Notes under the pieces: generated by a model
What the model was told of the DNA's origin: nothing
What the model saw: the letters and a program-made list of their open reading frames with translations, nothing else
The model's database searches: none
DNA from: an uncultured Pelagibacteraceae bacterium
Lineage (GTDB): Bacteria; Pseudomonadota; Alphaproteobacteria; Pelagibacterales; Pelagibacteraceae
Reading direction: 5' to 3'
Length of the DNA: 64,000 bases
Assembly: GCA_902524545.1 (NCBI GenBank)
Contig: CABZDW010000006.1
Location: forward strand, 1-64,000
Translations under genes and position numbers: made by a program
Shown here: positions 654 to 17,996 of the stretch, in pieces
How the letters are laid out: every line of letters starts with the position of its first letter
Numbering within the stretch: position 1 is the first letter of the stretch

Positions 654-1892
654 ATGAGATTAAATAAAATAATTTTAAGTTTTATTTCTGCATTAGCGAT
701 TTTATTCTCAACTTCAGTTGTATCACTTGCAAAAGTAGTTGGTGATAAGATTGTATTAGGTGCAGCTATTTCATTAACTGGAAAATATTCATCTAATGGT
801 GTTCATACTCAAAACGGTTACAACATGGCCGTTGATAGAATTAACAGTATGGGTGGAGTTAAAGTTGGTGGAAAAACTTATAAGTTTGACATTATTTATT
901 ATGATGATGAGTCAAACCCAAAAAGAGCAGCACAACTTGCAGAAAGACTTATATCACAAGATGGTGTTGAGTTTATGCTTGGGCCATACAGTTCAGGATT
1001 AACTAAAGCAATAGCTCCAGTAACTGAAAAGTATGGTGTTCCAATGGTTGAAGCAAATGGCGCATCTAGATCTTTGTTTACAAAAGGTTACAAATATTTA
1101 TTTGCAGTTTTAGCTCCTGCTAATTTATATCTTGATGTTGCTATTGATTTAGCGGTCGAAAAGAATAATGGAAAAGGTGTATCAGTTGCGATGGCATTTG
1201 AACAGGATGCGTTTTCACAAGACGTGAGACTCGGCGTTTTAGATGCAATTAAAAGAACAGGCTCTAAAAAAGTAATCGATGATAAATTACCAAAAGAGCT
1301 AAACGATATGGCAGCGACTTTAGTAAAAGTGAAACAAATGAAACCAGATGTTTTAGTGGTTTCAGGCCATACTAAAGGTGCATTAACTGCTATTAGACAA
1401 ATATCTGAGATGAAAGTAGACGTTCCAATGTTAGCTATGACACACTGTGATGCAGCTAAATTATCAAAGCAACATGGAAAAAACTCACAATATGCTCTAT
1501 GTGCTTCTCAGTGGCATAAAACACTTACTTATAAAGACGACTTTTTTAAAGACGGTATGACTTATGATGCAGACTTTACTAAAGAGTTTGGTTATGCGCC
1601 TCCATATCAAGCAGCGGAGTCATCAGCAGCTCTATTGGTATTTAAAGACGCATTTGAGAGAGCAAATTCTTTCGATCAAAAGAAAGTAAGAGATGCTCTT
1701 GCGGCTACGAACATGCAAACTTTTTATGGAAACATAAAGTTTGCTGAAGGTGGTCAGAATGTTGATAAACCAATGGTGCTATTCCAAGTAATGTGTGATG
1801 ATGCAGGAAAATGTGAAAATAAAGTTGTTGCTCCAACTAAATGGGCATCAGCTAAGTTAATTCACCCAATTCCTTCATGGTCTAAAAGATAA
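654..1892 (+). CDS. ABC transporter substrate-binding protein, LIV (branched-chain amino acid type), system 1
   Basis: This is a periplasmic type I binding protein (412 aa) that would deliver an amino acid or related ligand to the permease encoded downstream. A signal peptide ends near VVSLA, and the mature start, GDKIVLGAAISLTGKYSSNG, is the usual first strand of LivJ-like receptors. The motif DDESNPKRAAQLAERLI and the following FMLGPYSSG are also typical. A good ribosome site (AAAGGAA) precedes the ATG. Four cysteines in the C-terminal half could form disulfides. A strong hairpin terminator separates it from livH, which would keep receptor levels above permease levels. The ligand is unknown, and the adjacent glutarate hydroxylase leaves room for a non-branched-chain substrate. 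Confidence 0.88.
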   Translation: MRLNKIILSFISALAILFSTSVVSLAKVVGDKIVLGAAISLTGKYSSNGVHTQNGYNMAVDRINSMGGVKVGGKTYKFDIIYYDDESNPKRAAQLAERLISQDGVEFMLGPYSSGLTKAIAPVTEKYGVPMVEANGASRSLFTKGYKYLFAVLAPANLYLDVAIDLAVEKNNGKGVSVAMAFEQDAFSQDVRLGVLDAIKRTGSKKVIDDKLPKELNDMAATLVKVKQMKPDVLVVSGHTKGALTAIRQISEMKVDVPMLAMTHCDAAKLSKQHGKNSQYALCASQWHKTLTYKDDFFKDGMTYDADFTKEFGYAPPYQAAESSAALLVFKDAFERANSFDQKKVRDALAATNMQTFYGNIKFAEGGQNVDKPMVLFQVMCDDAGKCENKVVAPTKWASAKLIHPIPSWSKR

Positions 1893-1906
1893 AAACAAAT
1901 CTATAG

Positions 1907-1944
1907 ATACCCCCTAATATATTATATTTAGGGGGTATTTTTTT
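1907..1944 (+). terminator. Intrinsic terminator/attenuator between binding-protein gene and livH
   Basis: ATACCCCCTAA and TTAGGGGGTAT-type arms pair around an AT-rich loop and are followed by a run of T. It lies only 12 bases before the livH start, so it probably acts as a partial terminator that lowers permease expression relative to the receptor. Confidence 0.85.
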
Positions 1945-1955
1945 AAAGGTTCATT

Positions 1956-2849
1956 ATGGATTTCATGGTCTTCCAATATCCGATGATTTCCGTTCAAGCA
2001 TGTTTGGACGGAGTTTTACTTGGAATTTTATTTGCATTGATTGCATATGGTATGGCACTTCAATGGGGAGTAATGAATATAATTAATATTGCTCAAGGAG
2101 ATCTTGTTATATTAGGTGGATACATTGCTTACTTCATGTATCTGTATGGAATTCATCCAGCTTGGGGAGTTATTGTTTCTCCGGTAGTAATGTATTTTGT
2201 TGGTATAGCAATTTACAAACTTGTAATTAATAAAGTGGTAGACAGAGATTTATTTATTTCTATTTTAGCAACTTTTGGAATAAGCATTCTATTCATGCAA
2301 TTAATGAACTTCGCATTTGGAGCAGATGTTGTCCTTGCAAATTCAGATTACGGAACAACTATGTTGTTCAATAATAATGTTGTGCTACCTAATTCAAAAA
2401 TATTTTCAGCATTCATAAGTATTTTGTTTGCTGTTTGCTTAGTTATTTATATGAAAAAATCTAAACTTGGTCGTGCGATTAGAGCTACAGCGCAAAATGC
2501 AAGAGCAGCAAAGATTTTAGGTGTAGATACAGAAAAAGTGTATGCAGCTACTTTCGGTATTAATGCAGCTCTTTGTGGTGTTGCTGGGGCATTAATATCT
2601 ATTACTTTTACAATTCACCCTTATATGGGACTTCCATACACAATTAGATCTTTCATGATTGTCATTGTTGCAGGATTAGGAAACTTACCTGGTGTTGCAA
2701 TGTCAGGGATGGGCTTAGGTGTATTTGAAGAATTTGCAGATTACATACTGGGCACAGAATTTAGAATTGGGTCAGTATTTTTATTGTTAGTTTTAATACT
2801 TGTTTATAGAAGATTTAAACTTTCAAGAAAAAGAGAGTATTTAAAATGA
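1956..2849 (+). CDS. livH: LIV-type ABC transporter permease, LivH family, system 1
   Basis: This inner-membrane permease subunit (297 aa) has about eight hydrophobic segments. The N-terminal motif GVLLGILFALIAYGMALQWGVMNIINIAQGD is the hallmark of LivH, and GRAIRATAQNARAAKILGVD is the cytoplasmic coupling loop that contacts the ATPases. It overlaps livM by 4 bases (ATGA), indicating translational coupling in the operon livH-livM-livG-livF-azlC-azlD-glaH. Its length is normal for the family. The transported ligand cannot be read from the sequence. Confidence 0.92.
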   Translation: MDFMVFQYPMISVQACLDGVLLGILFALIAYGMALQWGVMNIINIAQGDLVILGGYIAYFMYLYGIHPAWGVIVSPVVMYFVGIAIYKLVINKVVDRDLFISILATFGISILFMQLMNFAFGADVVLANSDYGTTMLFNNNVVLPNSKIFSAFISILFAVCLVIYMKKSKLGRAIRATAQNARAAKILGVDTEKVYAATFGINAALCGVAGALISITFTIHPYMGLPYTIRSFMIVIVAGLGNLPGVAMSGMGLGVFEEFADYILGTEFRIGSVFLLLVLILVYRRFKLSRKREYLK

Positions 2850-3904
2850 GTATTAGCAAAAATAATCTAATTTTATATATTGGAATATTAACTTTTGGTA
2901 TAGCAGCTCCATTCTTGTTTCCGGCTTTTAAAGTTCAACTTTCAATTCTTTGTGTATTAATAGTTTTAGCAACCACATGGAACATTCAAGGTGGTGAAAT
3001 GGGCTATAATTCTTTTGGTAATATTTTATTTTATGGACTTGGAATGTATCTGTGTGCATCTGTTCAAGTTGGAATGTTTTTTCCATTAGCTGAGTGGACA
3101 GAAAGCGGTGGTGAAAAAACTTTTGTACATACACCTACGCAATTTTTTCAAGGAATGGCTTTTGGGTTACTAGTTGCAGCGTTTGTACCAGCCATTGTAG
3201 CAGGTCTAATTGGATACTCTATTTTAGGACTAAGAGGACATTACTTTGCAATTTGCACATTAGGCTTAGGTGTTGCAGCAGGTGAAATTTCTGGAGGAAT
3301 TGAAATAATTGGAGCTGGACAGGGTTTCACTACTCCACCATTTCCTGATGTAGGAAGTTTAGATTCAAGAGGTGAATTTTTCTATTTCTTAAGTTTTTTT
3401 GTTTTAGTACTGACTTTCATAACTGTGAGAGGAATTTACTCAACTAGATTTAAATTAATTCTAAATGCAATTAGAGATAATGAGGATAAAGCTGAGGCTA
3501 TGGGAATTGAAACAATGAAGTATAAGATAGTTGGATGGATGATATCAGCTTTCTTCTGTGGTTTAGCTGGAGGAATCATGGGTGGCTTAGTTGGATATAT
3601 CGATTCAACCGATGTTGCTTTTGATGGAAGAGAGATGGGAGTATTCATGGTTTTAATGGCAATCTTAGGTGGAAAAGGAACCTTATGGGGACCAATAATT
3701 GGTGCAACAGTGTTTCATATTTTTAAAGAGGGGTTTTGGACATTCTTTTTAGGTTGGCAATATGTTGCGCTAGGAGTTTTAATTGTAGTTATCGTTATTT
3801 ATTTCCCAGAGGGAATAATGGGATGGTTGAGAGAAAAATACCCTGAAAGATTTGGTGAGGTTGTGGATGAAAAAGATCGTAAAGCACAGGTGGAGCTCAA
3901 ATGA
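2846..3904 (+). CDS. livM: LIV-type ABC transporter permease, LivM family, system 1
   Basis: This is the second permease half (352 aa). It carries the LivM motifs GLRGHYFAICTLGLGVAAGEI and RFKLILNAIRDNEDKAEAMGIE (coupling loop), then GGIMGGLVGYIDS and GGKGTLWGPIIGA near the C terminus. It would pair with the LivH protein to form the channel. Unlike the LivM of system 2 it is intact. It overlaps livH by 4 bases at its start and livG by 4 bases at its end. Confidence 0.92.
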   Translation: MSISKNNLILYIGILTFGIAAPFLFPAFKVQLSILCVLIVLATTWNIQGGEMGYNSFGNILFYGLGMYLCASVQVGMFFPLAEWTESGGEKTFVHTPTQFFQGMAFGLLVAAFVPAIVAGLIGYSILGLRGHYFAICTLGLGVAAGEISGGIEIIGAGQGFTTPPFPDVGSLDSRGEFFYFLSFFVLVLTFITVRGIYSTRFKLILNAIRDNEDKAEAMGIETMKYKIVGWMISAFFCGLAGGIMGGLVGYIDSTDVAFDGREMGVFMVLMAILGGKGTLWGPIIGATVFHIFKEGFWTFFLGWQYVALGVLIVVIVIYFPEGIMGWLREKYPERFGEVVDEKDRKAQVELK

Positions 3905-4641
3905 GTATTTTAGAAGTTAGCAACGTAAGTAAATCATTTGGTGGTGTAAAAGCTAATGTAGATATTTCAATGAATGTTGAAAAAGGCAGAATAGTTGGAT
4001 TAATTGGTCCCAATGGATCAGGTAAAACAACACTGTTTAATTCAATAGTTGGAACGTACCCAATTGATAATGGTTCAATTAAGTTTAATGATAAGGAAGT
4101 TTCGGATCTACCAGTTCCGGTTATTGCAAAACTTGGATTGTTAAGAACTTTTCAACAAACCCGAATTTATGGAAAATTAAATTGTGTAGAAAATATGCTA
4201 ATCAGCCACAAAGGAAGTGATGAGAGCTTAATGAAGATTTTTTCAACGATTCCTAAAGGACTTAAAGATAAGGCAGAAAATTTATTAAATTTTGTAGGTT
4301 TATATCAAAAAAGGAATTTGAGAGCAGGCGATTTATCTTTTGGACAACAAAAATTATTAGAACTGGCTATGGCATTAATGAATGAACCAGAAATGTTATT
4401 ATTAGATGAGCCAACAGCTGGGATTAATCCAACATTAATTAATGGAATTATAGATAGATTAATTAAAGTAAATCAAGATTTTGGAATTACTCTTTTGGTC
4501 ATTGAACACAATATGAGAGTGATAATGCAACTAGCAGAAAATATTTTTTGTTTGGCTCACGGAAAGATGCTAGCCAATGGTTCACCAGATGAAATAAAAA
4601 GTGACAAAAGTGTAATAGATGCGTATCTGGGAGCTCAATAA
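3901..4641 (+). CDS. livG: LIV-type ABC transporter ATP-binding protein, LivG family, system 1
   Basis: This is a cytoplasmic ATPase subunit (246 aa). Walker A GPNGSGKT lies at residues 36-43, the signature is LSFGQ (145-149), Walker B is MLLLDE (165-170) and the H-loop is in VIEHNM near 204. The signature differs from the usual LSGGQ in having phenylalanine at the third position, which is tolerated in some ABC proteins. The LRTFQQTRIY segment is characteristic of LivG. It overlaps both neighbours by 1-4 bases, so the subunits are likely made together. Confidence 0.92.
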   Translation: MSILEVSNVSKSFGGVKANVDISMNVEKGRIVGLIGPNGSGKTTLFNSIVGTYPIDNGSIKFNDKEVSDLPVPVIAKLGLLRTFQQTRIYGKLNCVENMLISHKGSDESLMKIFSTIPKGLKDKAENLLNFVGLYQKRNLRAGDLSFGQQKLLELAMALMNEPEMLLLDEPTAGINPTLINGIIDRLIKVNQDFGITLLVIEHNMRVIMQLAENIFCLAHGKMLANGSPDEIKSDKSVIDAYLGAQ

Positions 4642-5426
4642 TGACAAATCAGTATGAGGTTTTAGGAAAAGCTCCAACAGCAGAAGAGCTAAAAAATTTA
4701 GCTCCAGATGAAATTCATTTAACAATCAAAAATTTAAATGCTGGTTATGGCAAAATGGAAATACTTCATAACTTTGATTTATTCGTAAAAAAGGCTCAGT
4801 CGTTATGTTTGATTGGACCAAATGGTGCAGGTAAATCAACAATACTTCATTCAATATATGGGTTTACAAACATTTTTTCTGGACAAATTGAATTAGATGG
4901 AAAAGAAATTACAAATCTTACACCAGCTGAAAAATTAAAATCGGTAGGTATTGCGTACATTCTTCAAGATAATTCAGTATTCCCTGACATGACAGTTGAG
5001 GAAAACTTATTAATGGGTGGATATATTAAAGAAAATACAGATGAGTCTTATCAAGAGGCAGAGAGAATATTTGAAAAATATGAAAGATTAAGGAATAGAA
5101 GAAATCAACCTGCTAAAGTACTATCTGGTGGGGAGAGACGTTTGCTAGAAATTTCCAGAGCTTTAGTAATGAAACCTTCTGTGCTATTAGTCGATGAACC
5201 ATCAATTGGATTGGAGCCAAGATATATTGAAATGGTATTTGAAATTTTAAGAGATCTTCAAGAGAATGAAAAAAAAACAATCATCTTAGTTGAGCAAAAT
5301 GCAAAAAAAGGACTTGAGTTTGCTGATATTGGTTATGTTTTAGTCTCTGGTCAAACAGCAATTGCTGGTAAAGGTGATGATCTTTTAAGTAATCCTGATG
5401 TGGGTCGCCTTTTTCTAGGTGGTTAA
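4641..5426 (+). CDS. livF: LIV-type ABC transporter ATP-binding protein, LivF family, system 1
   Basis: This is the second ATPase subunit (261 aa). Walker A GPNGAGKST lies at residues 59-67, the signature LSGGE at 161-165 and Walker B VLLVDE at 181-186, with a VEQNA H-loop typical of LivF in which glutamine replaces histidine. It has an N-terminal extension of about 25 residues before the usual start of the fold. That extension is not seen in the LivF of system 2. Its stop codon overlaps the azlC start by one base. Confidence 0.92.
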   Translation: MTNQYEVLGKAPTAEELKNLAPDEIHLTIKNLNAGYGKMEILHNFDLFVKKAQSLCLIGPNGAGKSTILHSIYGFTNIFSGQIELDGKEITNLTPAEKLKSVGIAYILQDNSVFPDMTVEENLLMGGYIKENTDESYQEAERIFEKYERLRNRRNQPAKVLSGGERRLLEISRALVMKPSVLLVDEPSIGLEPRYIEMVFEILRDLQENEKKTIILVEQNAKKGLEFADIGYVLVSGQTAIAGKGDDLLSNPDVGRLFLGG

Positions 5427-6130
5427 TGATCAACACAAAATATTTTTTAAAGGGTTTTAAGTCAATAAAAGGTGTAGGAAGTCCAGCTATTGCTCTAGCA
5501 GCTAGTTTTGTTGCAATTGGTGCATTATTAAAAAGTTTAGGTTTCACAGTTAAAGAAAGCATTTTTTCTACTCTTTTGACATATGCTTTACCTGGATCGT
5601 TAGTGATGGCTGAGTCAATGTTAATTGGGGCGTCATTGATAAATATTTTTTTAGCTGTTTGGTTAGTTAATGCAAGATTATACCCAATGACCGTAGCACT
5701 AATGCCTTTATTGTTACATGAAAATCAACCTAGATGGAAATATTATTTATCATGTCACTTCATTGCTGTCTCCTCTTGGCTTATTATGAAAGACAATTAT
5801 GAAGTAATTGAAAAAAAAAATAGGATAGATTTTTGGATAGGTATTGGGACAGCAACATGGTCTGTTGCAATATTTGCAACAGTTGTTGGCTATATAGCAT
5901 CTGATTTTCTCAATAAAGATATCCTTATTGGTTTAGCTATAATTAATCCAATCTATTTTACTTGCATGATGTTAAGTGCAATGAAAACTATTCAAATAAC
6001 TTTATCCGTCACCTTAGGAGCGATTATAGGTCCAATGTTTTATTTCTTATCTCCTGAGTGGTGCATTTTATTTGGTGGTTTTTTTGCAGGTACAATTGCT
6101 TTTTTAATTGGAGAAAAAAATGGCGAATAA
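5426..6130 (+). CDS. azlC: AzlC family permease (branched-chain amino acid efflux, large subunit)
   Basis: AzlC proteins together with AzlD form exporters of branched-chain amino acids or analogues such as azaleucine. This 234-aa protein has multiple hydrophobic segments and the family-like SLGFTVKESIFSTLLTYALPGSLVMAESMLIGAS region, followed by NARLYPMTVALMPLL. It begins on the stop codon of livF and overlaps azlD by 11 bases. An exporter pair inside an importer operon is unusual. It may act as a relief valve or handle a product made from the imported ligand. Confidence 0.85.
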   Translation: MINTKYFLKGFKSIKGVGSPAIALAASFVAIGALLKSLGFTVKESIFSTLLTYALPGSLVMAESMLIGASLINIFLAVWLVNARLYPMTVALMPLLLHENQPRWKYYLSCHFIAVSSWLIMKDNYEVIEKKNRIDFWIGIGTATWSVAIFATVVGYIASDFLNKDILIGLAIINPIYFTCMMLSAMKTIQITLSVTLGAIIGPMFYFLSPEWCILFGGFFAGTIAFLIGEKNGE

Positions 6131-6443
6131 CATTATAATCATAATTATAGTCACGTCTTTAGCAACATATCTTTCAAGATTTTTAGGTGTTGTAAGTGCA
6201 GAAAAAATCAAAGAAACTTCAAAAATGTTTAGATGGTTTAATTGCCTAGCATACTCAACTCTAGCGGCACTTATTACAAGAATGATAATTTTTCCATCAG
6301 GATCTTTAAATGAAGTAGACTACTTTATAAGATTTATAGTTGTTTTTTTAGCTATAATTATTTTTTATATAACTAAAAAAAATCTAGTTTATCCAACTCT
6401 TTTATCTGGTATCATATTATCAATTTTTAATATTTATTTATGA
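6120..6443 (+). CDS. azlD: AzlD family small membrane protein (efflux partner of AzlC)
   Basis: This protein of about 107 aa has three to four membrane segments and a TSLATYLSRFLG motif near the N terminus, as expected for AzlD, the small partner of AzlC. The ORF track starts at a TTG (6108). The ATG at 6120 is preferred because GGAG stands just upstream as a ribosome site. Its TGA overlaps the ATG of the glutarate hydroxylase gene, so the last three genes of the operon are translationally coupled. Confidence 0.8.
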   Translation: MANNIIIIIIVTSLATYLSRFLGVVSAEKIKETSKMFRWFNCLAYSTLAALITRMIIFPSGSLNEVDYFIRFIVVFLAIIIFYITKKNLVYPTLLSGIILSIFNIYL

Positions 6444-7366
6444 TAGAAAAAATTGATGGCTTTGAAATTAGTTTTAACGATAAATCCTCTAGGATAATAA
6501 ACATTGATATAGGTGAAGAAATTTTAAATAAACTCATTTTTCCATTTAATAAATTTGATATTACAGCTTTAGAGTACAAGCCTTTTACTAGATTCACCAT
6601 TGCTAAAAGCTTAGATGATTTGAGTGAAAATAGATTATCTAAATTTATAAATAAGATTGTTCGAGATAGAAATACGGGTTGCTTTATAATTAAACCAAAA
6701 AACCTAATTTCTAAAATAGATAATAATTTTTTGGTAAAACTCTCTACAGCAGTAGCACATTTAATTGGTGTACCTAATCATGATGCTATGGCTGGAAAAT
6801 ATTACGCAAGATTTCATGTTAAGCATGAGGATAAAAGTGATTCTTATCTTAGAAAAGCTTATACAAACATGGATCTGCACACCGATGGAACTTATGTAAA
6901 AGAAAAAACTGATTGGTTATTGATGTCAAAACTAGAAGAAAAAAATGTTGAAGGAGGAGAGTCTGCCATGTTACATCTTGATGATTGGGAGCATTGTGAT
7001 GAGTTATTTAATGATCCATCTGCAAAAGAGAATTTTATTTGGGGATCTCCTAAAAGTAAAAATATTGATTATAAAGTTGAACATCCAGTATTTTCATCTG
7101 ATAAAAATGGTAGAGCCCAAATTTCTTATATTGATCAATTTCCTGAACCGAAAAATATGAGACAAGGAGTTTTTTTACAAAAATTGTCTGACAGTCTAGA
7201 GGAAAGTAATCATAAGATAATTACAAGACTTCCAGTGGGTTCTTCTGTAATAGCTAATAATTATTTTTGGCTACATGGAAGAAAGCCTTTTAAGGAAAAT
7301 ATAGACTTGAGCAGAGAACTTTTGAGAATAAGAGGGTCTTTTTTTAAGGATACAAACTCAATTTAA
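6440..7366 (+). CDS. glaH: Glutarate 2-hydroxylase (GlaH/CsiD family Fe(II)/2-oxoglutarate dioxygenase)
   Basis: GlaH (formerly CsiD) converts glutarate plus 2-oxoglutarate and oxygen to L-2-hydroxyglutarate, succinate and CO2, in the lysine-to-succinate route. The 308-aa protein matches my recollection of E. coli CsiD over most of its length: TALEYKPFTRF, LSTAVAHLIGVPNHDAMAGKY, DKSDSYLR, LLHLDDWEH-like and FWLHGR segments. The iron ligands are visible as H147 and D149 (DLHTDGTYV) and H279 (WLHGR), with an arginine near 292 for 2-oxoglutarate. It is the last gene of the LIV/AzlCD operon and is followed by a hairpin. The usual partner lhgO is not adjacent. Confidence 0.9.
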   Translation: MIEKIDGFEISFNDKSSRIINIDIGEEILNKLIFPFNKFDITALEYKPFTRFTIAKSLDDLSENRLSKFINKIVRDRNTGCFIIKPKNLISKIDNNFLVKLSTAVAHLIGVPNHDAMAGKYYARFHVKHEDKSDSYLRKAYTNMDLHTDGTYVKEKTDWLLMSKLEEKNVEGGESAMLHLDDWEHCDELFNDPSAKENFIWGSPKSKNIDYKVEHPVFSSDKNGRAQISYIDQFPEPKNMRQGVFLQKLSDSLEESNHKIITRLPVGSSVIANNYFWLHGRKPFKENIDLSRELLRIRGSFFKDTNSI

Positions 7367-7396
7367 ATTAGAAATTCTTGAAAAAACTAGATTATT

Positions 7397-7430
7397 TTAT
7401 GTTGTATTATTGCAACATAAATTATTTTTT
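7397..7430 (+). terminator. Intrinsic terminator after the liv-azlCD-glaH operon
   Basis: TTATGTTG and CAACATAA form an eight-base-pair perfect stem around an eight-base loop, followed by ATTATTTTTT. The stem is AT-rich and so only moderately stable. Confidence 0.6.
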
Positions 7431-7443
7431 GTCTTTTAAACTT

Positions 7444-7462
7444 GAAAATTGTCGCAATTTTC
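7444..7462. repeat. Short perfect inverted repeat upstream of the outer-membrane protein gene
   Basis: GAAAATTG-TCG-CAATTTTC is an eight-base-pair perfect palindrome with a three-base spacer, in the 160-base gap before the barrel gene. It has no T tract immediately after it. It could be a regulator binding site or an mRNA hairpin. Nothing else recognisable is in this gap apart from the terminator before it. Confidence 0.4.
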
Positions 7463-9109: not shown

Positions 9110-9895
9110 ATGCAAGATAATATTTTAGATATAAAAAACTTATCAAAATATTTTGGTGGATTGGCCGCTATATCTAATTGTTCTTTAAAAGTAAAGAAAG
9201 GAACTATAACTGGAATAATAGGACCCAACGGCTCAGGCAAAACAACTCTGTTTAATCTAATCGCTGGTAATTTAAAATCATCTACTGGAAGTGTTTTATT
9301 TAATAATGAAAATATTACTAATATTCCGTCTTATGAATTATTTTCAAAAGGACTGCTAAGAACTTTTCAAATAGCACATGAATTTACAAATTTATCAGTG
9401 TTAGAAAATTTGATGATGGTACCAGGTAACCAGTCTGGAGAAAAGCTGATGAATGCTTTATTGAAGCCTGGATTAGTTGCAAAAGAGGAAATTCAAATAA
9501 AAGAAAAAGCAATTGAAGTGGTTGATTTTCTAAATTTAAGTCATTTAAAGAATGAATTAGCAGGAAATCTCTCTGGAGGACAAAAAAAATTATTAGAATT
9601 AGGAAGAACGATGATGGTGGATGCAAAATTGGTCTTATTAGATGAGGTTGGTGCAGGCGTAAATAGAACCTTATTAAAAGATTTAGGGACAGCTATTGAG
9701 AAATTAAACAAAGAGAAAGGCTATACCTTTTGTATGATTGAACATGACATGGATTTTATTGGAAGGTTATGTGATCCAGTAATTGTAATGGCAGAGGGAT
9801 CTGTTTTATTTGAGGGTTCGGTTGAAGATGCAAAAAAAGATGAGAGAGTTATTCAGAGTTATTTAGGCAGAGGTTCAAAACTAAAAGATAATTAA
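9110..9895 (+). CDS. livG: LIV-type ABC transporter ATP-binding protein, LivG family, system 2
   Basis: This is a 261-aa ATPase subunit. Walker A GPNGSGKT lies at residues 38-45, the signature LSGGQ at 154-158 and Walker B LVLLDE at 174-179, with an IEHDM H-loop. The LLRTFQIAHEF segment identifies it as LivG. An AGGA ribosome site stands directly before the ATG. The gene order here is G-F-H-M, whereas system 1 is H-M-G-F, so the two systems are separate lineages rather than a recent duplication. Confidence 0.92.
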   Translation: MQDNILDIKNLSKYFGGLAAISNCSLKVKKGTITGIIGPNGSGKTTLFNLIAGNLKSSTGSVLFNNENITNIPSYELFSKGLLRTFQIAHEFTNLSVLENLMMVPGNQSGEKLMNALLKPGLVAKEEIQIKEKAIEVVDFLNLSHLKNELAGNLSGGQKKLLELGRTMMVDAKLVLLDEVGAGVNRTLLKDLGTAIEKLNKEKGYTFCMIEHDMDFIGRLCDPVIVMAEGSVLFEGSVEDAKKDERVIQSYLGRGSKLKDN

Positions 9896-9897
9896 AT

Positions 9898-10605
9898 ATG
9901 GCATTTTTTGAGGGAAAAAACATGACAGGTGGATACGGCAAGGGTCCAGACATAATCAATTCATGCACTGTTAATGTTGAAAAAGGGGAAATAGTATCAA
10001 TTCTTGGACCTAATGGTGCAGGAAAATCTACTGCAATGAGAGCAATGTTAGGTTTATTAAATCTAAAATTAGGCTCTGTAATTATTGATGGAAAGGACAT
10101 TTCAAAACTTTCCCCACAAGATAGAGTAAAAGAAGGAATTTCGTTTGTACCACAAACTAAAAATGTATTTGCAGGATTGACAGTTGAGGAAAATCTAGAG
10201 ATGGGAGCCTTTTTAGTTACTCAAGATTATACGAAAGTTATTGATGAAATTTATAATCTTTTTCCGATTTTGAGTGAAAAAAGAAAACAATTTGTAGGAG
10301 AGTTATCAGGAGGTCAAAGACAACAAGTTGCGTTAGGAAGAGCTCTAATGATTAAGCCGTCTGTCCTTATGTTAGACGAACCAACTGCTGGAGTTTCTCC
10401 AATAGTGATGGATGAACTTTTTGATCATATTATAAAAGTAAAAAAAACAAATGTTGCAATTTTAATGGTTGAACAGAATGCAAAGCAAGCTCTCAATATT
10501 TCTGATAGAGGATATGTATTAGTCAATGGAGAAAATCGTTATTCGGGGACAGGGGAAGAATTACTTAATGATCCAAGAGTAAGAAGCTCTTTTTTAGGTG
10601 GTTAA
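9898..10605 (+). CDS. livF: LIV-type ABC transporter ATP-binding protein, LivF family, system 2
   Basis: This 235-aa ATPase subunit carries Walker A GPNGAGKS (residues 37-44), signature LSGGQ (136-140) and Walker B VLMLDE (156-161). The VEQNAKQAL sequence replaces the usual H-loop histidine with glutamine, as LivF proteins commonly do. Its length is standard and it lacks the N-terminal extension of the system 1 LivF. The start is two bases after the livG stop, and its own stop abuts the livH ATG with no gap. Confidence 0.92.
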   Translation: MAFFEGKNMTGGYGKGPDIINSCTVNVEKGEIVSILGPNGAGKSTAMRAMLGLLNLKLGSVIIDGKDISKLSPQDRVKEGISFVPQTKNVFAGLTVEENLEMGAFLVTQDYTKVIDEIYNLFPILSEKRKQFVGELSGGQRQQVALGRALMIKPSVLMLDEPTAGVSPIVMDELFDHIIKVKKTNVAILMVEQNAKQALNISDRGYVLVNGENRYSGTGEELLNDPRVRSSFLGG

Positions 10606-11616
10606 ATGGATTTTCTAAATGCAATAATTCTTTTATTAAATTATATATTTGTTCCTGCTCTTGCTTATGGATCTCAATTAGCTATTGGAGCTATATTTGT
10701 AACTTTAATTTATGGAATTCTGCGTTTTGCAAACTTTGCAACTGGAGATATGATGTCTTTTGGTACAATGATTGCCATCCTTTTTACTTGGTACTTTCAG
10801 TCGATTGGCTTATCACTTGGTTTTTTACCCACTGCACTTTTAGCAATCCCTTTTGCAATTCTGTTTATGGGTTTATACATGCTAATTATTGATAATTTTG
10901 TATTTAAATATTACAGGTTAAACAAAAGTCCTCCAGTCCAATTAGCAATGGTGAGTATTGGAGTAATGTTTGTTACCCAGGCAGTAGTAAGAATTATAAT
11001 TGGTCCATCGGATAGAAGATTTTTTGATGGTGAGAAATTTTTGATTAAAGCTAATGAGTTTAAGGAAATGACAGGTTTGAATGAGGGACTTGCTATTAAG
11101 TCAACTCAAGTAATTACAATTGTTGTTACTTTAATTTTAGTTTCGACTTTATTCTGGTTTTTAAACAAAACTAAAACTGGAAAAAGTATGAGAGCTTATT
11201 CTGACAATGAGGATTTAGCATTACTTTCTGGAATAGATCCAAAAAGGATTGTTATGATAACTTGGATGATTGCTGCAATTTTAGCAACAATAGGTGGTGT
11301 TTTGTATGGTTTAGATAAAAGTTTTAAACCATTCACTTATTTTAATAACATGCTCCCAATATTTGCTGCTGCTATAGTTGGGGGAATTGGTAATCCTTTT
11401 GGAGCTTTCCTTGGAGGTTACGTAATTGCTTTTTCTGAAATACTTCTGACTTACGCATATAAGAAATTCTTTATGTATGTGTTACCAGAAAGCATGGAAC
11501 CAGATGGTTTAATTCAATTACTTTCAACTGATTATAAATTTGCAGTATCTTTTTCAATATTGGTAATTGTATTGCTTTATCGTCCATCTGGAATATTTAA
11601 AGGAAAGATATTGTGA
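10606..11616 (+). CDS. livH: LIV-type ABC transporter permease, LivH family, system 2
   Basis: This 336-aa inner-membrane permease has eight or so hydrophobic stretches. AIGAIFVTLIYGILRFANFATGDMMSFG is the conserved LivH N-terminal motif, and GKSMRAYSDNEDLALLSGID is the coupling loop. It is longer than the system 1 LivH because of a larger periplasmic loop around residues 125-160. The start codon follows directly on the livF stop. Its last codon overlaps the GTG of livM by 4 bases. Confidence 0.92.
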   Translation: MDFLNAIILLLNYIFVPALAYGSQLAIGAIFVTLIYGILRFANFATGDMMSFGTMIAILFTWYFQSIGLSLGFLPTALLAIPFAILFMGLYMLIIDNFVFKYYRLNKSPPVQLAMVSIGVMFVTQAVVRIIIGPSDRRFFDGEKFLIKANEFKEMTGLNEGLAIKSTQVITIVVTLILVSTLFWFLNKTKTGKSMRAYSDNEDLALLSGIDPKRIVMITWMIAAILATIGGVLYGLDKSFKPFTYFNNMLPIFAAAIVGGIGNPFGAFLGGYVIAFSEILLTYAYKKFFMYVLPESMEPDGLIQLLSTDYKFAVSFSILVIVLLYRPSGIFKGKIL

Positions 11617-12984
11617 GAAAAAATTTAAATGTAATTGCAGCTTACAGTATTATGATGGGATTAATTATCCTTGTTGGTATATTTCAATCTTGGAATATTG
11701 CTTTATCCATCTTTAATTTATGTTTGATCTCAGCTGTCATGACTATGGGTGCTAATATTCAATGGGGTTATGCTGGTTTAATTAACTTTGGAATAATGGG
11801 CTTTACAGCATTAGGCGGTCTAGCTGCAGTTTTAATTTCTGTAAATCCAGTTCAAGAGGCTTGGAGTGCAGGGGGCACCAATATTCTATTAAGTCTATTT
11901 CTTATTATTGGAATTGTTTTAGCTGTTAGATTTGTTCTTAAAAGATATCAGAAATCTAAAATTAGAAATTATATAATCGCTGTAATTATCATTTCAGGAA
12001 TAATTATTATACGACTTGTCTCTGAACCTGGTATTGAAGCAATTGAGGAAGTAAATCCGGCAAGAACTGGATTTCTAGGTGGGCTAGGGCTTCCAATAAT
12101 TTTTTCTTGGATTGTGGGCGCTTTCTTTGCAGGAGGATTAGCTTTTGTAATTGGAAAAGTAGCCTTAGGATTAAGAGCTGATTATTTGGCAATTGCAACT
12201 TTGTTGATCTCAGAAATAGTAATAGCAATTATTAAACATGAAGATTGGTTAACTAGAGGTGTAAAAAATGTTATCGGTTTAAAACGTCCTGCTCCATATG
12301 AAGTCAACTTACAAGAAACAGAATGGTTTATAAATCTGGTTGAAAAATTTAATTCAGGAAAATTAGCTTTGATTTCTGATATCACAGAAAGACAAGTAGC
12401 TCTTAATCAATTTGTAATTGAGGGATCATCAGTATTTGTAAAACTTTGCTATTCAGGTTTATTTTTTAGTTGTTGTGATTATTCTTTTAATCTTAACTCA
12501 GAAAGCTCTTTACTCTCCTTGGGGAAGAATGATGAGAGCTATTAGAGATAATGAAGAAGCTGCTAACGCAATGGGAAAAAATGTGGTTAAACAACATCTA
12601 TTAATTTTTGTTTTAGGATCAGCTATAGTTGGTATTGCGGGAGCTATGCTTGTCACTCAAGATGGATTATTTACACCAGGAAGTTATAGACCTTTAAGAT
12701 ATACTTTTTTAATTTGGGTAATGGTTATTGTTGGTGGAAGTGGAAACAATTTTGGAGCAATTCTTGGAGGTTTTGTAGTTTGGTTCTTATGGATTGAGGC
12801 AGCACCAATTGGATTATATTTAGTCAATCTAACAACAGCAGGTTTAGAAGATACCCATTTTTTAAAAGTTCATTTAATTGAAAGTGTTCCTTATTTCAGA
12901 TTTTTAATGATGGGAATAGGTTTATTATTAATTATGAGATATAGACCAAAGGGTATACTTCCTGAAAAAATAGAAATAAAATAA
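11613..12984 (+). pseudogene. livM: LIV-type ABC transporter permease, LivM family, system 2, interrupted by a +1 frameshift
   Basis: Two ORFs (11613-12545 and 12475-12984) together make one LivM. The first reads from a GTG start to ...FVKLCYSGLFF and then drifts into non-family sequence. The second frame supplies LVVVIILLILTQKALYSPWGRMMRAIRDNEEAANAMG, the conserved coupling loop, and the C-terminal half. Removing one T from the six-T run at 12462-12467 gives GLFLVVVIILL and restores a protein of about 456 aa. This may be a sequencing error, a real mutation, or a frameshift rescued by slippage. All other subunits of the system are intact, which favours an error or a recent event. Confidence 0.88.
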
Positions 12985-12988
12985 AATT

Positions 12989-13060
12989 ATGAAATATATT
13001 ATTACAGGTGCTGCCATTGCTTGGGCTTTATATATGGCAGATAAATATTTATTTTTTTAA
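12989..13060 (+). CDS. Possible 23-residue membrane peptide after livM
   Basis: An ATG four bases after the livM stop opens a frame of 23 codons (MKYIITGAAIAWALYMADKYLFF) ending in TAA. It reads as a single membrane-spanning helix with basic and acidic residues at the interface. It would be the last cistron of the transporter operon and lies directly before the shared terminator. Small membrane peptides of this kind often accompany transporters, but there is no homology evidence here, so coding is uncertain. Confidence 0.4.
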   Translation: MKYIITGAAIAWALYMADKYLFF

Positions 13061-13097
13061 AAAAAACCCCCAACATCAAAGATGTCAGGGGTTCAAT
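13059..13097 (-). terminator. Intrinsic terminator between convergent livM and the second binding-protein gene
   Basis: AACCCC...ACATC-AAA-GATGT...GGGGTT forms a long stem with a small internal mismatch. On the minus strand it is followed by eight T residues, so it ends the binding-protein transcript. On the plus strand the stem may also stop livM transcription, although the following tract is less T-rich. Confidence 0.85.
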
Positions 13098-13111
13098 TCT
13101 TTTAAGATAAA

Positions 13112-14302
13112 TTATCTTTGTTTTTTAGTTTTGAATTTACCGCCTTTAACTTCTTGTTCTAAGAAAGAACCTTCAGCTTCACCGACGCTAGTAAAAGTAA
13201 CTCCAGTTGCACCTTCGTAGTCAACTTTTTTACCTTTAGCTAATAAATCTAAACCTTTTTTAAGTTCACCTGGGTAAATTTTTGTTCCAGGACCATTAGC
13301 AACATCCATTACATTTTTTGCAATTGATGCTCTGTCAGTTGAGTTACCTGCTTGCATTGCTAAAACTATTAAAGCGGCAGCATCATATGACTCGCCTGTG
13401 TAAGGACCAGAACTATCAATACCAGCTGCACTTGCTACTTTAGCAAATACTCCAGCACCTTTTCCAGTTGAACCAGGTAATGAACCAAAAGATTTATTTA
13501 AATCTTTACCAAATGCATCAACTAATGATTGACCAATCATACCATCTGATAAAATAAATCTATCAAATGCACCTGAGTCTAAAGATGCTTGGATAATACC
13601 TTTACCACCTTGGTCTAAGTAACCGATTACAGCTACTGCATCTCCACCTGCTGAAGCAAGTGTTGCTACTTCAGATGAGTAGTCTGCTTTACCGTCTTCG
13701 TGTGCAGTTACTGTAGTAACTTTAATACCATGAGCTTCAACAGCTGCTTTGTAAACATCTGCTAAACCTTTTCCATAGTCGTTATTTGTGTAAGTAATTG
13801 CTACACTTTTAATTTTTCTGTCTTTAGTAACATCAGCTAAGATTTGACCACCTCTTGCATCTGAAGGAGCTGTTCTAAAAAAATATCCTTTATCGTCTAG
13901 AGTCGTTAAACCTGGAGATGTTGCTGAAGGTGAAATCATTACAACACCATTTGGCACTGCAACATTAGATGCAATCGCACCCGTTACACCTGAACAATCA
14001 GCTCCCATAATTGCTGTAACACCTTGTGATATAACTCCTTCAGCTGCTGCAGTTGCTGCTGCTGAGTCTACACAAGTTGAGTCTGCTCTAATTGATTTAA
14101 TTTTTTTTCCCCCTAATAGTGACCCTGAGTCCGAAGCTTCTTTGAAAGCTAATTCAGCAGAGGCAGCCATAGCAGGTGTTAAGGACTCAATAGGACCAGT
14201 AAATCCTAAGATAATCCCCATTTTAATTGAATGACCATCTGCTATCACATTTGTTCCAAAACTCGATACAAATATAAATGCAGCAATAATTAATTTTTTC
14301 AT
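13112..14302 (-). CDS. ABC transporter substrate-binding protein, LIV type, system 2
   Basis: This 396-aa periplasmic receptor has a signal peptide ending near NVIADG. The mature start IKMGIILGFTGPIESLTPAMAASAELAFKEAS is typical of LivJ-like type I binding proteins. GVTAIMGADCSGVTGAIASNVAVPNGVVMISPSATSPGLT is the conserved ligand-site region with its serine/threonine cluster. It points toward the livGFHM genes from the opposite strand and is most likely their receptor. The two cysteines (STCVDS and ADCSG) could form a disulfide, as in LivJ. Its separate promoter in the 124-base gap at 14303-14426 would permit higher expression than the permease. Confidence 0.88.
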   Translation of the reverse strand: MKKLIIAAFIFVSSFGTNVIADGHSIKMGIILGFTGPIESLTPAMAASAELAFKEASDSGSLLGGKKIKSIRADSTCVDSAAATAAAEGVISQGVTAIMGADCSGVTGAIASNVAVPNGVVMISPSATSPGLTTLDDKGYFFRTAPSDARGGQILADVTKDRKIKSVAITYTNNDYGKGLADVYKAAVEAHGIKVTTVTAHEDGKADYSSEVATLASAGGDAVAVIGYLDQGGKGIIQASLDSGAFDRFILSDGMIGQSLVDAFGKDLNKSFGSLPGSTGKGAGVFAKVASAAGIDSSGPYTGESYDAAALIVLAMQAGNSTDRASIAKNVMDVANGPGTKIYPGELKKGLDLLAKGKKVDYEGATGVTFTSVGEAEGSFLEQEVKGGKFKTKKQR

Positions 14303-15097: not shown

Positions 15098-15586
15098 TTA
15101 ATATTTTGATTTTTTACCAGCAATGACTGCCTTTAGTTCCTCATACTCTTCACAATTGCAACTTTTTAAAACTTCAAGTCTTTCAACAGCAAGGTTATGT
15201 CTGTTTGTGGCAACATATAGTTCACCCAGATATTCATTAATACCGATGTGTTTTGGATTAATTTTTAATCCTTGCAAATAATACTTTTCTCCATTTTCAA
15301 AATCACCAAGTTTTCGAGTGGTAAAACCAAGGTAATTTAATGTGTCTGGTTTGTTTGGAAAATTTTTGTTAGATTGAATTAATAATTTTTGAGCCTTCTC
15401 GTATCTTTTTTTTGCTTTATCTAATTTGTCTTTTTTTTCAAAGTTTTTCGCTGCATTAATATGAGTAACAGCCATGTCATATTTAGTTTCAGTCTTTGAA
15501 GAGTCACTATCGCTAGAACCAGCTGCAAAAGAGTTAGTAACTAAAAATATTGAGACTATTATAGAAATAAAAAATTTTTTTATCAT
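15098..15586 (-). CDS. Exported tetratricopeptide-repeat protein
   Basis: This 162-aa protein has a signal peptide (MIKKFFISIIVSIFLVTNSFA) followed by a Ser/Asp-rich linker and about two to three TPR units. The clearest is PDTLNYLGFTTRKLGDFENGEKYYLQGLKINPKH, with the preceding AKKRYEKAQKLL as a partial unit. TPR proteins are scaffolds for protein-protein contacts, here in the periplasm. The ATG overlaps the stop of pxpA (ATGA), so it is translated with that gene, but a link to 5-oxoproline metabolism is not evident. C-terminal cysteines (SCNCEE) are notable. Confidence 0.7.
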   Translation of the reverse strand: MIKKFFISIIVSIFLVTNSFAAGSSDSDSSKTETKYDMAVTHINAAKNFEKKDKLDKAKKRYEKAQKLLIQSNKNFPNKPDTLNYLGFTTRKLGDFENGEKYYLQGLKINPKHIGINEYLGELYVATNRHNLAVERLEVLKSCNCEEYEELKAVIAGKKSKY

Positions 15587-16362
15587 ATAAATTTCTTCAT
15601 TTTATTTAAAGTTTTAAGCGTTAGCCCATTATACAGTAAATTTTTTTTTATTGATTTAGCGGTTTCTAACGAACTAATATTATCACCATGTATGCATACA
15701 GAATCAATTTCACAAGCTATTTGTTTCCCACTGTGACAATTAAGTGACTGGGTTTGAACCATTTTTAATACGTGTCTTTTAGCCTGCTCTGGGTCAGTAA
15801 TTAAAGCATAAGGCTTTTTTCTTGATACAAGATTTCCATCATCCTCATAATTTCTGTCTGCAAATATTTCACAAGCAATTTTCATATCTAACTTTTTAGC
15901 AGCGTGTTGCATTTTAGATCCAGTTGGTACTAAATAAATCAACTCTGGATTTATTCTTTTGATTACTTTTGCTAATGTTGTTGCTAAATCGATATCCTCG
16001 CACGCCATATTATTTAAAGCACCATGCGGCTTTATATGAGTAACATTTTCACCATGGTTAGATGAAATTGTTTGAAGAATTTCATATTGATCAATTATTA
16101 ATTTTTCTATCTCTGAGTCAGATAAATCCATTCTCTCTCTGCCAAAATTTTCAGGATCATTAAAAGATGGATGCGCTCCAATACTAACACCATTTTTTTT
16201 TGATATATTTACAATTGTATTCATAGTTTCTTCATCACCCGCATGATATCCACATGCTACATTTGCTGAATTAACTATTTCAAGTAATTCAGGATCATAT
16301 TTGTTAGAATGATGTTTAGATTTTTCCCCTAAATCACAATTTATATTAATTTCCATACTCAC
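15583..16362 (-). CDS. pxpA: 5-oxoprolinase subunit A (LamB/YcsF family)
   Basis: PxpA with PxpB and PxpC cleaves 5-oxo-L-proline to glutamate using ATP. The protein is 259 aa, the normal length. Family motifs are INCDLGE at the N terminus, NVACGYHAGDEETM, GAHPSFNDPENFGRE, HIKPHGALNNM and CEIFADRNYEDDGNLVSR. The start could be at the first ATG or the one two codons in. It is transcribed away from pxpB with only about 21 bases between them, which differs from the common co-directional order. The TPR gene follows with an overlap. Confidence 0.92.
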   Translation of the reverse strand: MSMEININCDLGEKSKHHSNKYDPELLEIVNSANVACGYHAGDEETMNTIVNISKKNGVSIGAHPSFNDPENFGRERMDLSDSEIEKLIIDQYEILQTISSNHGENVTHIKPHGALNNMACEDIDLATTLAKVIKRINPELIYLVPTGSKMQHAAKKLDMKIACEIFADRNYEDDGNLVSRKKPYALITDPEQAKRHVLKMVQTQSLNCHSGKQIACEIDSVCIHGDNISSLETAKSIKKNLLYNGLTLKTLNKMKKFI

Positions 16363-16383
16363 TATTCTTCAGTATAACATGGC

Positions 16384-17058
16384 ATGTTAATAAATATATC
16401 AAATCTTGGTGACGCAGCTTTATACTGTGACTTTGGAAAAGAAGTAAATAGAAAGATTAATAGTCAAGTAATAAGATATTTTAAAACTATTCTAAAAAAA
16501 AATATTGTAGGAGTTAATAATCTAGCTCCGTCATATAATAAATTAATAATTTCCTTCGATCTAAAAAAAATTAATTTTAATAAACTCAAAAAAATAATTG
16601 ATAACATTGAAATTATTGAAGATGATGGTCTTCAATATAAAAAGTTTGAAATTCCCGTTTGTTGTGAAAAAGATTTTTCCTTAGATATAAACAGACTCGA
16701 AGAAAAACTTCAGATGAAAGAGGAAAAAATATATGAAAATTTTTTTGAAAAAGAATTTTTTTGCTATATGACAGGTTTTATTGCAGGAATGCCTTTTCTT
16801 GGAGACTTAGACGAAAATTTAAGAGCAAAGCGTCTTGATACTCCTAGGGTTAAGGTACCAAAAGGTTCAATTGGTATAACCGAGCAATTTGCAAATATCT
16901 ATACATTTGAAAGTCCTGGGGGGTGGAATATTATTGGTAATACTCCTCTGAATATTTTTAATAGCTCTAAAGAAAATGAGCCTAATTTAATTAATCCAGG
17001 TGACTCAGTTTTATTCAAAAGAATTACAAAAGAGGAATATCAAAATTATCATGAGTAA
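16384..17058 (+). CDS. pxpB: 5-oxoprolinase subunit B (KipI/allophanate hydrolase subunit 1 family)
   Basis: This 224-aa protein resembles PxpB/KipI. Visible family segments are the N-terminal NLGDAALYCDFG, the central EIPVCCEKDF (usually IPVCYGGEFGPDL), and the conserved GFIAGMPFLGDLDENLRAKRLDTPRVKVPKGSIGI plus ESPGGWNIIGNTPL. PxpB binds PxpC to form the 5-oxoproline-activating part of the complex. The central linker is shorter and less conserved than usual. It overlaps the pxpC start by 8 bases. Confidence 0.9.
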   Translation: MLINISNLGDAALYCDFGKEVNRKINSQVIRYFKTILKKNIVGVNNLAPSYNKLIISFDLKKINFNKLKKIIDNIEIIEDDGLQYKKFEIPVCCEKDFSLDINRLEEKLQMKEEKIYENFFEKEFFCYMTGFIAGMPFLGDLDENLRAKRLDTPRVKVPKGSIGITEQFANIYTFESPGGWNIIGNTPLNIFNSSKENEPNLINPGDSVLFKRITKEEYQNYHE

Positions 17059-17996
17059 AAATTATTTTGAAATTATAAGAGCTGGTATTAATTCAACTTT
17101 CCAAGATATTGGTAGAAACAATCTCTACCACATAGGAGTTCCATTTAGTGGGGCCATGGATAATAGAAATTATTTATTAGCTAATAAACTTGCTGGAAAT
17201 AATGATAACTACCCTGTGATAGAATTTGCTTATCAGGGCCCTCATTTGAAATATTATGGAGATAAGTTAAATATTGCTATCACTGGTGATGTGACTTTTA
17301 AAATTAAAAAAGGTGATAATTCAATTGATGGACAATGTTATCAAACTTTTATTTTAGAAAATAACGATGAGCTAGATATTATATCGACAAATAGATCTGT
17401 ATATGGATATCTAGCAATAAGTGGTAAATTTGATTTAAAATATCAATGGTCTAGTTGCTCAATAAATACAAAAGCAAAAATAGGTTCTAACAAAGGAGAA
17501 AAAATATCTGATAATCAAAGGATTAGACTTAAAGAAATTAATATATATTTTGAAAATAAAAAATTAAATTATATTAATACAAAGATAGAAAATATTAGAG
17601 TAATTAAGGGAACAAATTTCAATTATTTTTCCGAAGAAGGAAAAAAAAATCTTTTTTAAAAATGAATTCAAAGTTTCTAAATTATCTGACCGCATGGGAA
17701 TGAGACTAGAGGGAAAAAAAATAGAAAACATTGTAGATACCAATATTAAATCCGAGGGTTTGATTAAAGGGGTAATACAAGTACCGGCAGATGGTAATCC
17801 AATTATCATGCTTTCGGATCATGGTACTATTGGGGGCTATCCTAAAATTGGTGTAGTTATAAGTGCTGATTATGACAAATTAGTTCAACTAACACCTGGC
17901 TCAAGAGTCAAATTTCAAGAGGTCGATTTAGATAGTGCAGAAAATCTTTTTAAATTGTATGAATTAGAAACTCAAAATTTAATTTCACAACTTTAA
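17051..17996 (+). pseudogene. pxpC: 5-oxoprolinase subunit C (KipA family), interrupted by a +1 frameshift
   Basis: Two ORFs form one PxpC/KipA. The first begins at ATG 17051 (FEIIRAGINSTFQDIGRNNLYHIGVPFSGAMD, the classic N terminus) and runs into a stop just after a nine-A run. The second carries SDRMGMRLEGKKIE and the C-terminal GVIQVPADGNPIIMLSDHGTIGGYPKIGVV. Deleting one A from 17641-17649 gives EGKKIFFKNEFKVSKLSDRMG without interruption, a protein of about 314 aa. PxpA and PxpB look intact. A homopolymer sequencing error is the simplest reading, but a true mutation or slippage cannot be excluded. Confidence 0.88.

Follow-up and report, generated by a model that had tools for sequence, protein, structure and literature searches.

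A conserved SAR11 operon links a LIV-type importer and AzlCD exporter genes to a predicted glutarate hydroxylase gene

The first 64,000 bases of contig CABZDW010000006.1 (here the window), from an uncultured Pelagibacteraceae bacterium of the SAR11 group (assembly GCA_902524545.1, 1.06 Mb, 89% complete), contain a tightly packed plus-strand operon coding for an ATP-binding cassette (ABC) importer of the LIV type, a two-subunit AzlCD exporter, and a predicted glutarate hydroxylase. The core (1956-7366) is organized with two permease genes, livH (1956-2849) and livM (2846-3904; BPD_transp_2, 124 and 99 bits, respectively), followed by the ATPase genes livG (3901-4641) and livF (4641-5426; ABC_tran, 102 and 106 bits, with LivG also containing BCA_ABC_TP_C). 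These are joined to azlC (5426-6130; Pfam AzlC, 76 bits versus 32) and azlD (6120-6443; Pfam AzlD, 53 bits versus 24), coding for the large and small subunits of an AzlCD (LIV-E) exporter, and to glaH (csiD; 6440-7366), which codes for a putative Fe(II)/2-oxoglutarate-dependent glutarate 2-hydroxylase (CsiD, 460 bits versus a cut-off of 27; GlaH equivalog of NCBIfam, 451 versus 333). Successive genes overlap by 4, 4, 1, 1, 11, and 4 bases, in agreement with the first-pass annotation of this DNA, which described seven genes joined by overlaps of 1 to 11 bases, and all family calls are confirmed by Pfam and NCBIfam profile scores above cut-off. The start of azlD is preferably the ATG at 6120, the listed TTG at 6108 being less likely. 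The AzlCD, BrnFE, and YgaZH exporters share the same two Pfam domains in adjacent, overlapping genes, but the SAR11 pair shares its operon with importer genes and glaH; against the azaleucine-resistance equivalog TIGR00346, AzlC scores 23.5 of 332 bits and falls below the cut-off.

The first-pass annotation began the operon at livH and ended it at a hairpin 3' of glaH. The hairpin is present (about 7396-7421; fold of 7367-7450, z = -2.5), although it is AT-rich, probably a weak terminator, and weaker than the one after the next gene (z = -5.1), whereas the start of the unit lies further upstream. It includes livK (654-1892; Peripla_BP_6, 165 bits), which codes for a periplasmic binding protein of a distinct HAAT/LIV-type subfamily and completes the five-gene LIV-I architecture with its domains, and which is usually preceded by a gene for an amino acid exporter of the LysE/RhtB family. 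In relatives the block usually begins with this lysE, which here occupies positions 1-562, its 5' end lost at the contig start (Pfam LysE, 66 bits versus 25.6). The space between livK and livH holds a 13-bp hairpin with a run of T after it (1905-1940; z = -3.6). A counterpart, its stem changed in sequence, is found in almost every relative, and the structure is therefore probably a preserved terminator or attenuator by which LivK would be made in excess over the permease. The sole regulator gene seen linked to the cluster codes for an Lrp/AsnC protein and overlaps lysE at the cluster head in genus g12 (L038:2514-3598 and L040).

The gene set that the annotation singled out as a unit is conserved across SAR11. 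The exact order livK-livH-livM-livG-livF-azlC-azlD-glaH is present in 36 of 44 SAR11 glaH neighborhoods, with two more cut or miscalled, and in 64 of 80 further named Pelagibacteraceae loci, of which 12 of the remainder are cut by contig ends yet are consistent with it. When 40 more loci are added and presence is scored, liv and azl genes are both upstream of glaH in 153 of 164, noting that the collections overlap and that the 44-, 80-, and 164-locus sets are not all independent. The operon is thus a real, old, and tightly co-inherited SAR11 unit composed of known families. The annotation also regarded it as undescribed, and this holds for the linkage of livKHMGF, azlCD, and glaH, for which no paper was found in the literature searched. 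It does not extend to the enzyme, as GlaH in SAR11 cadaverine and lysine breakdown has already been reported (PMC8437039), and novelty is therefore restricted to the linkage.

The block is gained and lost largely as a whole. Among 101 Pelagibacter-like genomes, 65 have both azlC and glaH, 34 have neither, none has azlC only, and two have glaH only, one of these being a fragmented assembly and the other having glaH located elsewhere. No full-length livK was found in any of the 20 block-negative genomes tested, one of which retains a 111-residue remnant, and in 14 block-negative genomes an empty site is seen, at which the same flanking genes adjoin each other with no block between them (a glutaredoxin-like gene and a small gene to one side, proC-livGFHM2 to the other); lysE is sometimes left behind, standing alone in L157, L161, and L120. 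When presence of the block is traced on a tree built from the flanking livGFH2 proteins, its state changes about seven times, at least five of them on well-supported branches, and the nearest relatives of the window by these flanks are without the block. The co-occurrence of azlC and glaH gives a Fisher p of 7e-25, which ignores relatedness, so that a count of independent changes is more informative. Chance adjacency of importer, exporter, and glaH is ruled out by the conservation together with co-loss at one site. Each SAR11 genus forms a single clade in the GlaH tree, from which we conclude that glaH is old and mostly vertically inherited in SAR11; outside the group it is seen in only 1 of roughly 380 sampled Alphaproteobacteria genomes, and there as a distant relative only.

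LivK identity among SAR11 genera is 67-93%, or 77-93% with one genus set aside; orthologues in other Alphaproteobacteria are 53-66% identical, and the LivK fold model is confident (predicted local distance difference test score, 87). The importer scores below every Liv equivalog cut-off. In Escherichia coli LivJ, we take Thr102 and Glu226 to form the alpha-amino site and Ser79 to be the alpha-carboxylate residue. Mapped by sequence at about 22% identity, Thr102, Glu226, and Tyr202 of LivJ correspond to Ala137, Thr263, and His239 of LivK, and Ser79 is kept as S114, which is invariant in SAR11 (the LivJ reference sequence was checked against PDB 1z15). Although the E. coli LIV-I system (LivJ/LivKHMGF) has the same five-gene ABC architecture and fold, its Thr102 and Glu226 thus have no equivalents in the SAR11 pocket, and for this reason LivK probably binds something other than a standard alpha-amino acid. 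The altered pocket (H239, K241, T263, H264, C265, and D/E266) recurs with few changes in the orthologues of other Alphaproteobacteria. A second LIV-type system adjoins the operon (9110-14302), with livGFHM on the plus strand and the binding protein gene on the minus strand at 13112-14302. This second binding protein keeps the Thr and the acidic residue in the usual LivJ-like pocket pattern, and the livM of this system is split into two overlapping frames (11613-12545 and 12475-12984) that form a single full-length frame in relatives.

The best match to LivK by sequence and by fold is SAR11_0655 with L-pyroglutamate (PDB 8wch), which is also from SAR11, but the two are 23% identical and SAR11_0655 is encoded elsewhere in the genome; in genome G026 a second LivK match is located at 640 kb. 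Naming the ligand by fold search was abandoned, as the ligands of the top matches (pyroglutamate, amino acids, urea, and aromatic acids) are too diverse to decide. Genes resembling those for the 5-oxoprolinase PxpABC (named by eye) are located at 15583-17659 of the window, and are of interest in view of the pyroglutamate bound by the closest LivK relative of solved structure.

In some relatives the LIV-type importer is replaced or accompanied by another. At L240, TRAP transporter genes dctPQM occupy exactly the livKHMGF slot, a TAXI-TRAP system lies near azlCD-glaH in genus g5, and tctCBA follows glaH in genus g4 (23 loci, nearly always directly) and, one gene further on, in genus g6. TRAP and Tct systems are generally importers of organic acids, and their association with azlCD-glaH therefore points to a carboxylate as the ligand class. 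Together with the altered LivK pocket, this makes it likely that the ligand is something other than leucine, as first suggested. Unrelated to these loci, a gammaproteobacterium has a second combination of this kind, in which tctCBA-like genes (named by eye) are near glaH-lhgO (L073:3659-9348).

The predicted GlaH retains the residues expected for activity on glutarate, with reference positions taken from the structure paper on the E. coli enzyme (PMC6265302). The iron ligands H147, D149, and H279 correspond to E. coli His160, Asp162, and His292, R296 corresponds to the 2-oxoglutarate-binding Arg309, and R298 and G150 correspond to Arg311 and Gly163 of the glutarate site; R296, R298, and G150 are invariant in six diverse SAR11 GlaH proteins. 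With the iron, 2-oxoglutarate, and glutarate residues kept, glutarate hydroxylation by SAR11 GlaH is likely. The E. coli csiD(glaH)-lhgO-gabD-gabT-gabP operon with CsiR (PMC6265302) codes for a hydroxylase of the same family and likewise includes an importer, GabP there and LivKHMGF in SAR11. However, the SAR11 operon is without lhgO, gabD, gabT, gabP, and csiR, and has an ABC importer and the AzlCD exporter instead.

The annotation was also right that GlaH is without its usual partner, in that the gammaproteobacterial pairing of glaH with lhgO is absent here and lhgO is recognizable neither in the genome of the window (best match, 58 bits of 299) nor in the complete genomes of the genus that were tested. 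No lhgO scores above cut-off in the tested genomes of Pelagibacter (g1), g2, g4, or g5, and LhgO is above or near cut-off only in genomes of g9 and g12 (G009, G012, and G022, plus a G040 copy with an in-frame stop). This g12 copy (L119; G040:C1:239218-240342) has an in-frame TAA and its relative in G012 is intact, consistent with decay or a sequencing error. Two kinds of weak LhgO match in the genome of the window were set aside: a 423-residue protein (L004) reads as sarcosine oxidase beta, an identification that we presume from its sequence, and 817-residue proteins align over the first 230 or so residues only and are not LhgO-like. A GabD-like gene (489 of 646 bits) is also present in block-negative genomes, and no match to a dedicated GabT was found at 1e-60 in Pelagibacter. 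Most of the GlaH-bearing SAR11 genera examined are thus without a recognizable enzyme for the next step, and because LhgO is not recognizable in Pelagibacter, conversion of L-2-hydroxyglutarate to 2-oxoglutarate there must use a non-LhgO enzyme, or the product leaves the cell.

Strains HTCC1062 and HTCC7211 take up cadaverine, and glutarate 2-hydroxylase ("gab") is listed in their cadaverine/lysine pathway and placed among the polyamine pathways (PMC8437039). We found nothing in that report on an operon with livKHMGF and azlCD, and its legend names ygaF (lhgO), yet no lhgO homologue was above cut-off in Pelagibacter here. The interpretation that we tentatively prefer, at somewhat less than even probability, is that the operon serves SAR11 in taking up a small carboxylate or omega-amino carboxylate connected with five-carbon (C5) metabolism (lysine, cadaverine, 5-aminovalerate, or glutarate), with GlaH and with overflow export by AzlCD and LysE. 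LivK, in probable excess owing to the hairpin after its gene, would capture the ligand, and LivHMGF would import it, the ligand presumably being a non-alpha-amino carboxylate or an omega-amino carboxylate. General-purpose aminotransferases and aldehyde dehydrogenases whose genes lie elsewhere could then yield glutarate, which GlaH is predicted to hydroxylate to L-2-hydroxyglutarate with O2, as 2-oxoglutarate is converted to succinate. AzlCD and LysE, judged by their families, may serve as safety valves that release excess amino acids when the importer is active, and the overlapping genes would hold importer, valve, and enzyme under one control. SAR11 bacteria are among the most abundant organisms in the ocean, and their substrates set much of marine carbon flux. 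A deeply conserved transporter annotated for branched-chain amino acids probably carries something else and is inherited with a C5-dicarboxylate enzyme, from which a concrete list of candidate ligands follows.

Several observations weigh against this C5 uptake reading. The sub-blocks are separable, with liv-azlCD present without glaH in genera g3, g10, and g11 (L109-L113), azlCD-glaH present without liv in g5 (L055, L079, and L080), L093, and L240, and liv-glaH present without azlCD in L222 and L226. The livK orthologues of other Alphaproteobacteria are accompanied by livHMGF and have no azlCD or glaH beside them, nor any consistent partner gene among their neighbors; as glaH is also nearly absent outside SAR11, the LivK ligand need not belong to the GlaH pathway. 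We know of no ligand for the LivK subfamily, the identity at which its pocket was mapped onto LivJ is low, and neither LhgO nor a dedicated GabT was found in Pelagibacter. The loci with liv-azlCD and no glaH also fit ordinary amino acid homeostasis, with LivKHMGF importing branched-chain or neutral amino acids, AzlCD and LysE exporting the surplus, and GlaH a metabolically unrelated passenger on the same promoter. AzlCD relatives export branched-chain-type amino acids, a regulator of the Lrp/AsnC family overlaps lysE in g12, and the ligands of the closest LivK relatives with solved structures are amino acids, amides, or aromatic acids (SAR11_0655, with L-pyroglutamate, ranking first), all of which are consistent with such a role. 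Nonetheless, we consider it somewhat unlikely, as LivK is without the alpha-amino residues, a canonical-looking second LIV system adjoins the operon, glaH is gained and lost along with the transporters, and azlCD-glaH persists where liv is absent.

Two further explanations give GlaH a different task. The family name may mislead, and SAR11 GlaH could hydroxylate some other carboxylate, or an amino acid, that LivKHMGF brings in; the SAR11 proteins do form one well-separated clade that shares about 45% identity with GlaH of gammaproteobacteria, their genes have a new neighborhood, and LhgO is mostly missing. Such a substrate shift is unlikely given that the iron, 2-oxoglutarate, and glutarate-carboxylate residues are all conserved and that the score exceeds the GlaH equivalog cut-off. 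The first-pass annotation alternatively proposed a deliberate import-modify-export route, in which GlaH hydroxylates the imported compound and the product (for example L-2-hydroxyglutarate) exits via AzlCD. Such a route would account for a product without a known consumer in g1, g2, g4, and g5, which keep glaH with no recognizable LhgO, and for azlCD-glaH being the pair that persists in g5, L093, and L240. However, azlCD stays with liv in the genera without glaH and is also kept in the LhgO-bearing g9 and g12, and we know of no hydroxy acid transport by AzlCD, an amino acid exporter family. Because azlCD stays with liv without glaH, and azlCD-glaH stays where liv is absent, AzlCD cannot exist solely to export the GlaH product; the route is rejected as the principal explanation and is very improbable overall. 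A related proposal, and a distinctly unlikely one, is that in Pelagibacter the glutarate branch ends at L-2-hydroxyglutarate without LhgO, with an imported C5 carboxylate being converted and the product released to seawater or oxidized by an unrecognized enzyme; if true, SAR11 would act worldwide as a source or sink of L-2-hydroxyglutarate.

The block in the window (654-7366) looks mosaic. The livK-livM segment is closest to the L052 locus (livK, 91% DNA identity, and also 91% to L091), whereas azlCD-glaH is closest to L046 and L045 (76-85%, versus 69-77% for L052), and these differing nearest relatives suggest recombination inside the operon. A search of viral contigs for GlaH returned one distant match and none that was SAR11-like; the match (L242:5001-5885; 45%) is beside IscU-like and other host-like genes on a contig from a viral collection, and its viral assignment is doubtful.

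Genes for mostly secreted proteins are inserted at two operon junctions, livH-livM and azlD-glaH (L041, L046, L081, L089-L091, L095, L102, L104-L106, and L222). Their products include alpha/beta hydrolases, proteins with MORN and pentapeptide repeats or an inverse autotransporter domain, and unknowns, and the junction occupied by kin of one insert varies from genome to genome, a pattern resembling that of small cassettes moving from junction to junction. At L098 (6773-10672) genes resembling those for allantoinase, allantoicase, and ureidoglycolate lyase (named by eye) lie with a permease gene between azlD and glaH, the permease gene reading in the direction of the operon and the other three against it. 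L222 (3456-4283) has a gene for a PhyH-type 2-oxoglutarate dioxygenase between livH and livM, the second such dioxygenase in that operon.

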